Source: Bacteroidota bacterium (GTDB taxonomy: Bacteria; Bacteroidota; Bacteroidia; Cytophagales; Cyclobacteriaceae). Taken from it: a DNA stretch of 60,667 nucleotides. Below the pieces are notes generated by a model that worked only from the letters and a program-made list of their open reading frames with translations, searched no databases and had not been told where the DNA came from. How positions within the stretch are numbered: position 1 is the stretch's first letter; each line of letters opens with the position of its first letter. The stretch lies in contig JAFDYT010000016.1 of NCBI GenBank assembly GCA_018266055.1, forward strand, positions 1-60,667. Reading direction: 5' to 3'. The position numbers and the translations under genes were made by a program. This document shows, piece by piece, positions 20,180 to 22,457 of this stretch.

Positions 20180-21305
20180 GGAGAATGATGTCAATGGGCT
20201 GAGGTGTGAGGCACAGCACAAAAATTAACAACGCAAGCCATCCCAGAATTTTTCGCGTACGGTCAAGCGGAAGTTCTATTTCACTTGGTGGATGAGGTAC
20301 TCCAGCCACCCAACCAATAAGTATGATAAATCCCAGCCACATGGAATATCCTTGTAGTGATGGAAGGAGCCAGCCTGTAAGATATTGCGCTGTAAAAAGG
20401 CCTACAGCGTACATGAGGCGATCCTGTTTCTTTTCAAACAAACTTCGCATGGCCATGTAGAGGGCATAGACGTAAAGTGGCGTGTACACATCAATCGGAG
20501 AGTAGGGACTATACAGGCCAAGACCGGCATAAAAAAGCAATCCGAAGTAAAGTACGGTGGCAATGATCCGATGACGACGGAAACCAACCAATCCGTACAG
20601 CACATGGCCGCCGTCGAGCTGACCAATTGGTAATAGGTTCATGCAGGTAAATACCAGTGACAAAAATCCTGCAAAGAGGTAAGGGTAATGCATGATCTCG
20701 TGTGGATTGGGCATGCGTGTGGGGTCGGCAAATACCTTTTCCAGAAAAATAAAAATAAAGTTCTTACCAATCACCACATCCACGATATTCGCAGGCATGG
20801 ACTTCAAATCATAGACATGATTGGCGTAATCGAGCCCGTACTTTTTGTACTCCGGATGAAATAGAAAAATATGTTCGGGTGGAGGGAGCGTCACAAATCC
20901 GTAAATCAAAAAACCAAGCGCTACCACAAACCCGGCCAGCGGCCCCGCAATACCGATGTCAAACTGTTGCTTGTTGCTTGGTATTCTTTCTTTGATGCGG
21001 ATAAGCGCTCCGAACGTTCCGAGAGTAAAAGGTAAATAAGGAATAGGAGGGATCGGTATGTAATAAGGCAATGTCGTTTTGATTCGGTAGTAGATGGCCG
21101 TGAAGTAATGCCCGAACTCGTGACAGGTTAGTATCGTGAGGAAACAGATTGAGTAGGGCAGACCACTGGCAAAATCGGCCCAGGTATATCCTTCCATGAA
21201 AATGGATTTTCCGTACGTCCATTCTGCACCGGCAAGGGTGGCGGAAACGAAGGTGACAACAAACAGCGCACTATGGATGAGGTACGACTTTAATTTTTCA
21301 TTCAT
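20160..21305 (-). CDS. Site-2 protease family (M50) membrane metalloprotease
   Basis: A 381-residue polytopic protein with several predicted membrane spans. It carries the in-membrane zinc motif HEFGH (in ILTCHEFGHYFTA) and a second motif MNLLPIGQLDGGHVLYGL, whose Asp completes the metal site. PIPPIPYLPFTLGTFGALIRIKERI is the usual segment following the motif. M50 proteases cut membrane proteins inside the bilayer, often in signalling; no partner is identifiable here. Its ATG overlaps the TGA of the HAD gene (ATGA, 21302-21305). Its last 20 bp overlap the convergent T9SS gene. Confidence 0.92.
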   Translation of the reverse strand: MNEKLKSYLIHSALFVVTFVSATLAGAEWTYGKSIFMEGYTWADFASGLPYSICFLTILTCHEFGHYFTAIYYRIKTTLPYYIPIPPIPYLPFTLGTFGALIRIKERIPSNKQQFDIGIAGPLAGFVVALGFLIYGFVTLPPPEHIFLFHPEYKKYGLDYANHVYDLKSMPANIVDVVIGKNFIFIFLEKVFADPTRMPNPHEIMHYPYLFAGFLSLVFTCMNLLPIGQLDGGHVLYGLVGFRRHRIIATVLYFGLLFYAGLGLYSPYSPIDVYTPLYVYALYMAMRSLFEKKQDRLMYAVGLFTAQYLTGWLLPSLQGYSMWLGFIILIGWVAGVPHPPSEIELPLDRTRKILGWLALLIFVLCLTPQPIDIILPTAATP

Positions 21306-21924: not shown

Positions 21925-21957
21925 TTGTATGATAAAGCGCAAATATGTAACATTGCA
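21925..21957 (+). promoter_or_regulatory. Promoter copy in front of the tRNA-Met remnant
   Basis: TTG at 21925-21927, a 20-nt spacer, then TAACATTGCA at 21948-21957. The same boxes with the same spacing precede the intact tRNA-Met (22328-22360), while the spacers differ. It probably drives the GIY-YIG gene through the tRNA remnant. Confidence 0.6.
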
Positions 21958-21971
21958 ACTCCTTTTCAAAA

Positions 21972-22014
21972 GGGCCCTTACTCATCCCGATAGCTATCGG
22001 GAGGTTAGAGCATC
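21972..22014 (+). repeat. Broken 5' half of tRNA-Met with an 18-bp palindrome in its D-loop
   Basis: GGGCCCTTA, CTCA and GGTTAGAGCATC match tRNA-Met nucleotides 1-9, 11-14 and 18-28 of the intact gene at 22371. One G of the D-stem is missing, and GCT of the D-loop is replaced by TCCCGATAGCTATCGGGA (21985-22002), a perfect palindrome. Similarity stops before the anticodon loop, so this cannot make a tRNA. It ends 13 nt before the GIY-YIG start codon and so forms that gene's leader. Confidence 0.85.
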
Positions 22015-22027
22015 CTTGAATTTTAAC

Positions 22028-22318
22028 ATGTCATTTTGCTACATACTTTTTAGCAAAAGTCTGAATCGGTTTTATATCGGGTGCACCCAAAAAACAGTTG
22101 AGGCGCGACTCGGAGAGCATTTGTCGAAAGTTTTTGAAGGGAGCTTTACAGGCCATGCATCAGATTGGGAATTATTTCATTCGATTTCGTGCGAGAACTA
22201 TCATCAGGCGTTAAAAATTGAACAACATATCAAAAAGATGAAAAGCAAAGTTTACTTGGAGAATTTGAAGAAACATCCTGAAATCACTGAAAGGCTTTTA
22301 GTTAAGTACAAAGTATAG
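22028..22318 (+). CDS. Small GIY-YIG endonuclease, probably of a tRNA-associated mobile cassette
   Basis: A 96-residue single-domain GIY-YIG protein. The frame is open further upstream (from 21845), but the domain begins at the ATG at 22028 (MSFCYILFSKS). The paired strands are CYIL and FYIGCT. The catalytic-helix arginine is in VEARLGEH, and the metal-binding Glu is likely the one in LKIEQHIKKMKSK. The domain cuts DNA in homing endonucleases, UvrC and restriction enzymes; stand-alone versions are common in Bacteroidota and poorly understood. It sits between a broken tRNA-Met half and the intact tRNA-Met, which points to an element that inserts at tRNA genes. Nuclease activity is inferred from the motifs; mobility from the context. 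Confidence 0.88.
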   Translation: MSFCYILFSKSLNRFYIGCTQKTVEARLGEHLSKVFEGSFTGHASDWELFHSISCENYHQALKIEQHIKKMKSKVYLENLKKHPEITERLLVKYKV

Positions 22319-22327
22319 ATTGAATAG

Positions 22328-22358
22328 TTGCTATTTCTACTTTCCATCACTAACATTG
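22328..22358 (+). promoter_or_regulatory. Promoter of tRNA-Met
   Basis: TTG at 22328-22330, a 20-nt spacer and TAACATTG at 22351-22358, 12 nt before the tRNA 5' end. This fits the Bacteroidota -33/-7 pattern with one deviation in the -7 box. The tRNA therefore does not depend on read-through from the GIY-YIG gene. Confidence 0.6.
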
Positions 22359-22370
22359 CAGTTCTTTTTA

Positions 22371-22444
22371 GGGCCCTTAGCTCAGCTGGTTAGAGCATCA
22401 GACTCATAATCTGAGGGTCGCTGGATCGTTCCCAGCAGGGCCCA
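22371..22444 (+). tRNA. tRNA-Met (anticodon CAT)
   Basis: A 74-nt cloverleaf: acceptor GGGCCCT/AGGGCCC with discriminator A, D-stem GCTC/GAGC, anticodon stem TCAGA/TCTGA around CTCATAA (anticodon CAT at 22405-22407), T-stem GCTGG/CCAGC. CCA is not encoded. It is not an initiator type, since the first acceptor pair is G-C, and elongator Met is most likely; tRNA-Ile with a modified C34 cannot be fully excluded. The T-loop reads ATCGTTC, with A54 and T58 swapped relative to the usual T54/A58. Confidence 0.92.
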
Positions 22445-22457
22445 CTTCCTTTTTCTC

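Follow-up and report, generated by a model that had tools for sequence, protein, structure and literature searches.

A small GIY-YIG nuclease gene between displaced and intact copies of tRNA-Met: a probable minimal, target-restoring mobile element of Bacteroidota

Why should a gene for a small nuclease lie between a broken and an intact copy of the same tRNA gene? The question is raised by a 60,667-nucleotide stretch of Bacteroidota DNA, here called the window, in which a displaced 5′ part of tRNA-Met is followed by a GIY-YIG nuclease gene, a second promoter copy and an intact tRNA-Met, in that order (Table 1). This layout, with a promoter ahead of each tRNA copy, had been put forward in an original prediction made from the sequence, and it is confirmed by the sequence and by ARAGORN; the gene for a 96-residue GIY-YIG protein, said to start 13 nt past the tRNA piece, is likewise in place. 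The piece itself had been described as nucleotides 1-28 of tRNA-Met with an altered D-loop. The 5′ duplication stands, but it extends to nucleotide 29, and the altered D-loop proves to be an inserted palindrome.

Table 1. Parts of the window locus, with positions counted from the first letter of the window.
Feature	Position	Strand	Basis
Promoter-like TAACATTG ahead of the displaced tRNA piece; native tRNA promoter	21948..21955	+	sequence
Displaced tRNA-Met 5′ part: nt 1-29, G10 missing, D-loop replaced	21972..22014	+	alignment
Perfect 18-nt palindrome TCCCGATAGCTATCGGGA within the displaced D-loop	21985..22002	.	sequence
GIY-YIG nuclease gene, 96 aa	22028..22318	+	PF01541 E 1.3e-11
Second TAACATTG copy, preceding the intact tRNA	22351..22358	+	sequence
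Intact tRNA-Met (CAT), restored gene	22371..22445	+	ARAGORN; Rfam RF00005 65.8 bits

The displaced copy is missed by BLAST at E 0.01-0.1 because the insert splits it. When gaps are tolerated, it aligns with a score of 34.3, against a maximum of 24.5 for 30 shuffled tRNAs. The promoter consensus of Bacteroidota is TAnnTTTG, and on this basis we take TAACATTG to be a promoter; the motif and its flank also precede the intact tRNA-Met of a sister genome, G011 (locus L220), and this tRNA-Met is identical in sequence to the intact one at the same locus in the window. Retaining the native tRNA promoter, the displaced half would transcribe the nuclease gene, and the second promoter copy would serve the restored tRNA.

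The GIY-YIG frame is the only open reading frame of at least 60 aa between the two tRNA copies, and neither a tyrosine recombinase, as in integrase-type tRNA islands, nor a RAYT (Y1/HUH) gene was found there. A homing gene borne by a group I intron was also considered and rejected, as the intact tRNA is external to the element and gives the sole Rfam match between positions 20500 and 24000 of the window. A scan of 25 distinct relative loci reported no intron family.

The protein matches PF01541 with 45.1 bits against a cut-off of 22.6, and carries the residues that are invariant among its relatives (Y5, Y16, G18, R27, H31 and E65), of which Y5, Y16, R27 and E65 are presumably catalytic, as in I-TevI. 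When a profile of 18 family members, the window protein included, was compared with solved structures, the nearest were the UPF0213 proteins 1zg2 (E 1.2e-17) and 1ywl (E 6.7e-16) and the SLX1 protein 7cq2 (E 1.3e-7), with I-TevI matching much more weakly (E 0.003). Judged by these profiles, the protein is a UPF0213/SLX1-like member of the GIY-YIG superfamily, nearer to these families than to the homing enzymes. We know of no UPF0213 or SLX1 protein that is mobile or associated with tRNA genes. Among 11 pairs of nuclease genes examined, the seven with finite dS give dN/dS ratios of 0.05-0.18, from which the genes are estimated to be under purifying selection. The window protein matched neither PHROG families at E 0.01 nor phage proteins at E 0.001. 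Three relatives from the tRNA-associated clade weakly match phage endonuclease families (best E 5.5e-5, the others 7e-4 to 0.009), and 14 phage records match the tRNA-Met subfamily at 33-43% identity. Membership of the SegB family was not found, as judged by the PHROG and phage searches.

Matches to PF01541 occur in all 62 genomes of the genus. We read 134 loci, 130 from among the best-scoring PF01541 matches listed and four from a similarity search with the window protein, and excluded a duplicate locus (L040), domains shorter than 200 nt and one match with a 919-aa open frame, UvrC-like by its length. The resulting set comprises 150 GIY-YIG domains from 128 loci in 50 genomes, again among the matches listed. 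In this listed set, 95 of the 150 domains, from 83 loci in 42 genomes, have an intact tRNA no more than 450 nt away. Position alone would put about 1% of them so near (43 tRNAs in 4.79 Mb), and all 95 share the strand of their tRNA. A partial tRNA copy within 400 nt is found by BLAST beside 79 of these 95 listed domains; gap-tolerant alignment recovers a displaced copy that beats 50 shuffles, on the other side of the gene, for 80 and finds none for the remaining 15. The original prediction, that this is a cassette that inserts into tRNA genes and that its homologues would adjoin partial tRNA duplicates, is supported by these counts, with homologues next to many different tRNAs. Relatives of the window protein itself occur in 16 of the 62 genomes, its own included, and a tRNA is present at 17 of the 19 relative loci besides the window (12 Met, three Thr, one Leu and one Asn; two pairs of loci overlap).

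Two classes can be distinguished among the 95 listed pairs. In the larger (64 of 95), the intact tRNA lies upstream of the gene and a 3′ part of the tRNA lies downstream. In the other (31 of 95), to which the window belongs, the order is displaced part, gene, intact tRNA. The prediction that the displaced 5′ half acts as leader of the nuclease gene can therefore hold for the 31, but not for the 64 in which the gene is downstream of an intact tRNA. Among the 3′-type cases in which the terminator is readable, it is repeated past the displaced copy in 24 of 38, and a different terminator is found in 14 of 38; the repeated terminators fit local duplication as much as transfer. At five 5′-displaced loci (L041, L047, L123, L146 and L148), the nuclease gene overlaps the restored tRNA, with an overlap of 10 nt or as judged by eye, and the TAG at tRNA positions 8-10 appears to serve as its stop codon. 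Given this overlap, nuclease and tRNA may share one transcript.

Fifteen hand-picked loci with no intact tRNA nearby were searched for similarity to 152 library tRNAs. Sequence resembling a tRNA was found at 13, two of which are tmRNA genes, and L081 and L141 showed none. The two tmRNA loci, in two genomes (L071 1058-1757 and L044 1035-1734), have a GIY-YIG gene 70 nt past the tmRNA gene and share one design: tmRNA, nuclease gene, then a T-arm with a hairpin in its loop. At L071 the 3′ end of the tmRNA and its terminator are repeated beyond the nuclease gene; at L044 the contig ends inside the displaced piece.

The nuclease clades follow the tRNA isotype. In a tree of 116 domains, isotype labels require 25 changes, compared with 83.6 when labels are shuffled, and none of 200 shuffles gives a value as low, although near-copies add to this clustering and the 83 alignment columns resolve few deep forks. 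In addition, 21 GIY genes picked among those that do not adjoin tRNAs fall on one side of a branch with an SH-aLRT support of 98. The same division was seen in a class-wide sample of 62 domains in 50 loci, sorted by profiles of the two clades: none of the 36 domains of the non-tRNA clade lies near a tRNA, whereas in the tRNA clade nine of 26 do, one adjoins a contig edge and 16 have no tRNA close by, 11 of these being further copies in tandem arrays and five being lower-scoring domains located elsewhere. Ranking by Pfam score across the class mostly yields the non-tRNA clade, with no tRNA in view at 28 of the first 30 loci. Members of this second clade at L022, L034, L036, L042 and L048 lie away from tRNAs among direct repeats. 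An association of non-tRNA GIY genes with REP-like motifs was considered and is not claimed, a fixed set of such motifs being present at only three of 38.

How widely does the arrangement extend beyond this genus? The scan of named genomes used the tRNA-Met subfamily (A3), since the general 18-protein alignment is too diverse for a contig scan, and breadth in named organisms is accordingly limited to that subfamily. It gave 49 loci in titled genome records, including those of Flavobacterium, Daejeonella, Sphingobacterium, Mucilaginibacter, Chitinophagales, Bacteroidales and Balneolaceae. A tRNA lies within 450 nt at 33 of the 49, always on the same strand (33 of 33), and is usually tRNA-Met (27 of 33) with a partial copy detectable by BLAST (25 of 33). 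The other 16 have no tRNA within 450 nt; seven of these are titled as other phyla (Clostridium, Dorea and others), and several are contig ends. Searches of plasmids and of IMG/VR viral contigs gave no copy of the nuclease family.

Sister genomes were compared at the same tRNA genes. The original prediction had proposed looking for strains in which the HAD and TauE genes flank a single tRNA-Met, and G011 carries a tRNA-Met between these flanks, with a different GIY gene downstream of it, on the other side from that in the window. Its displaced 3′ part has TCCCGAGGCTTCGGGA in the T-loop. The sequence ahead of the displaced part in the window corresponds to that which borders the intact tRNA in G011. 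From these alignments we take the window and G011 to represent two independent insertions into one tRNA, from opposite sides, in a comparison where the tRNA is seen in only two of 30 TauE loci (G000 and G011). Nor are the homologues fixed at this locus, the outcome that would have told against the original prediction. At a second tRNA-Met, beside an aldolase gene, 30 loci were read of 58 matching genomes; the tRNA is present in 16 (one in the opposite orientation), the GIY gene accompanies it in three of these 16 and is absent from 13, and four of the 13 sites without the gene keep a partial tRNA copy. Similarly, the dnaE locus has a single tRNA-Phe in G015, and in G000 has the tRNA, a GIY gene and displaced pieces; this is the only gene-free site there because the tRNA is present in only two of 30 loci. 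Sequence comparison shows presence/absence polymorphism at a fixed target gene, as is characteristic of free-standing homing endonucleases. Multiplication of the unit is also seen. Beside one tRNA-Met (L358; G169 C9 904500-912000), ten GIY-YIG genes lie in units of 457 nt, and the nine full units are identical, each with a 3′ piece of the tRNA (nt 48-74) and a terminator.

The palindrome in the D-loop of the window has many counterparts. Among the matches listed, 42 of the 80 displaced copies hold a total of 45 inserts of at least 8 nt, located in the T-loop (22), D-loop (seven), anticodon loop (five), variable loop (two) and stems or other parts (nine). The D, anticodon and T loops hold 34 of the 45, where 34% would be expected from aligned length (p 1.1e-8 if inserts are independent, which those of related copies are not). 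Hairpins are formed by 35 of the 45, in that at most two of 50 shuffles fold as low. Under the gap costs used, the remaining 38 of the 80 copies show no insert of at least 8 nt, with the palindrome of the window among those missed, and many of these 38 start at the T-loop. In the examples inspected, the hairpin is in the arm adjoining the nuclease gene and the opposite strand of the stem is retained. At the aldolase locus of G022 (L281), a displaced tRNA-Met part (nt 1-59) with two hairpins, one in the D-loop and one in the anticodon loop, lies upstream of the intact tRNA with no nuclease gene between them, and the GIY gene is on the other side. Neither the loop hairpins, the isotype-specific clades nor the 3′ class had figured in the original prediction.

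We consider it probable that the window contains one example of a minimal Bacteroidota mobile element that encodes a single protein, a small GIY-YIG nuclease, and restores its target; cleavage and movement are inferred from sequence patterns. By its sequence, the element is seated within a tRNA or tmRNA gene, in the orientation of that gene, with the whole tRNA on one side and the displaced half on the other. In the mechanism that we favor, the nuclease would cut its cognate tRNA gene in the loop, or a DNA hairpin formed there, and repair by homologous recombination from an element-bearing copy would install the nuclease gene together with a patch from which the whole tRNA is rebuilt. The hairpin would mark the insertion point and remove the target from the displaced copy. 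Finally, recombination between the two tRNA copies could delete the element or, if unequal, multiply it. In simple homing, the restored tRNA retains the presumed target, so the enzyme would cut its own host, and tolerance must be assumed.

The same genome offers a broader view of genes and hairpins. By similarity to the window protein it has four GIY-YIG genes, all near an intact tRNA. BLAST finds a partial tRNA copy at three of the four, and the window's requires gap-tolerant alignment. Two further GIY matches, one of them a fragment, adjoin tRNA-Ser and tRNA-Arg, and the Pfam search gives eight PF01541 matches in the genome. The 43 tRNAs scanned are those of ARAGORN within the stretches read, and Rfam likewise lists 43. 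Eight of the 43 have a GIY match within 500 nt. The 16-nt core of the palindrome occurs once in the window (zero expected from shuffles) and at 15 sites in the 4.79-Mb genome (zero for the reversed control), and eight of these sites are no more than 450 nt from an intact tRNA, where about 0.9% per site would be expected. Partial copies of tRNA-Ala, tRNA-Gly and tRNA-Thr, each with CCCGATAGCTATCGGG, next to the intact tRNA and with no GIY gene, are found at L006 (1396-1670), L012 (1358-1569) and L150 (1130-1274), respectively; these are possibly remnants or non-autonomous forms.

Could the palindrome, rather than the gene, be the mobile unit? RAYTs are HUH/Y1 transposases, and the hairpins here might be REP-like sequences mobilised by the GIY-YIG protein as RAYT transposases mobilise REPs, and directed to tRNA arms by the hairpins that these form as single-stranded DNA. 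Several observations accord with this reading, which we regard as rather unlikely: the prevalence of hairpins among the inserts and of tRNA loops among their sites, the seven core sites lying farther than 450 nt from any intact tRNA, the direct repeats around second-clade GIY genes at the loci inspected, and the kinship of the family with UPF0213 and with SLX1, a structure-specific nuclease. Moreover, partial tRNA copies exist without a GIY gene at three of 35 tRNAs in this genome and at four of the 13 aldolase sites, so the hairpin may be able to spread independently. However, displaced copies carry many different, unrelated palindromes, and therefore no single repeat has been mobilised; the hopping of hairpins leaves the rebuilt tRNA unexplained; and the scarcity of a fixed REP-like motif set at non-tRNA GIY genes also weighs against it.

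Ordinary tandem duplication of tRNA genes offers a simpler account, in which the partial copies are harmless, decaying duplicates and the nuclease gene has drifted in. It would accommodate the locally duplicated terminators and the identical tandem units, but we consider it improbable. Partial copies detectable by BLAST accompany five of the eight tRNAs of this genome that have a GIY match nearby, compared with three of the 35 others (Ala, Gly and Thr), and all three of these have the palindrome nearby. Agreement of strand in all 95 tRNA-near domains (among the matches listed), the isotype-specific clades and the hairpins in loops likewise disfavor mere duplication. Most doubtful of all is a module resembling a toxin-antitoxin pair, in which the GIY-YIG protein cleaves the RNA of its cognate tRNA and the displaced, altered-loop piece is an RNA decoy that restrains it: the isotype-specific clades, the coupling on one strand and the inspected displaced copies that keep the gene-adjoining stem with a changed loop would suit it, but known GIY-YIG enzymes mostly cut DNA, mobility of DNA is suggested by the gene-free sites, by insertions made independently on the two sides of a tRNA and by tandem arrays, and no displaced piece was found in 15 of the 95 listed pairs.

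The target-restoring element remains our preferred reading, and a bolder version of it may be entertained, if only tentatively. A structure-selective nuclease akin to SLX1 and UPF0213 would open a tRNA arm as hairpin DNA and install itself with a tRNA-restoring patch, giving units of less than about 500 bp whose ends are hairpin-capped tRNA remnants. Such elements would form an undescribed class in Bacteroidota, a GIY-YIG counterpart of REP/RAYT with isotype-specific lineages that also parasitises tmRNA.

If the preferred reading is correct, a single protein of about 90 residues suffices for a mobile element, and a strategy known from fungal mitochondria, to enter an essential gene, repair it and shelter behind it, extends to bacterial chromosomes. 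It would explain an entire clade of small Bacteroidota GIY-YIG genes beside tRNAs, as well as why some of the contigs here end at those sites. Every clade would also provide a naturally occurring nuclease with a single tRNA gene as its match, so that choice of target, tolerance of self and the hairpin's role would become directly testable.

What is the relation of this element to known systems? The open PMC literature, as far as its text was accessible, yielded no prior description of the arrangement of nuclease and displaced tRNA. In the accessible part of a 2006 survey of the superfamily, Bacteroidetes does not occur, and the three mentions of tRNA concern a TrmH fusion and references rather than tRNA neighbours (PMC1564403). 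The element seems to belong to a type of minimal mobile element that is as yet undescribed. It resembles the REP/RAYT systems, as portrayed in the available part of one account, in that intergenic hairpins are linked to a small nuclease gene (PMC3733652), but differs in that the nuclease is of the GIY-YIG type and the hairpins are in the loops of tRNA copies.

SegB of the T-even phages is a free-standing GIY-YIG homing endonuclease that is associated with tRNA genes, cuts DNA within them and is required for tandem amplification of segB-tRNA units, according to the accessible sections of its description (PMC13096335). Its reported motif, RAWTSGAAC (PMC13096335), appears to us to be complementary to the T-loop, where inserts in the displaced copies are most frequent (22 of 45). 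SegB is phage-borne, however, and the same sections report no isotype preference and do not describe target-restoring tRNA halves (PMC13096335).

In strategy the element also resembles the mORFs of fungal mitochondria, known from the Allomyces atp6 element and from Glomus atp6, atp9, cox2 and nad3 (PMC3630166). As related in the available part of that work, an endonuclease gene that has entered a host gene supplies its own copy of the end of that gene; the host gene is thereby restored to working order, and the original end is left on the far side of the endonuclease (PMC3630166). The elements examined here would follow the same plan, in that each appears to carry a partial copy of the host gene and to displace its native part; native flanks adjoin the displaced part, by comparison with G011 and G015. 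The mORFs occupy mitochondrial protein genes at their C-terminal ends, and in the portion available their endonucleases are LAGLIDADG proteins in three of the four Glomus genes and a GIY-YIG protein in atp9 (PMC3630166). Here, by contrast, the hosts are tRNA and tmRNA genes of bacterial chromosomes, either 5′ or 3′ parts are displaced, the nuclease is a UPF0213/SLX1-like protein of about 80-96 aa, and a hairpin is often found in the displaced loop.
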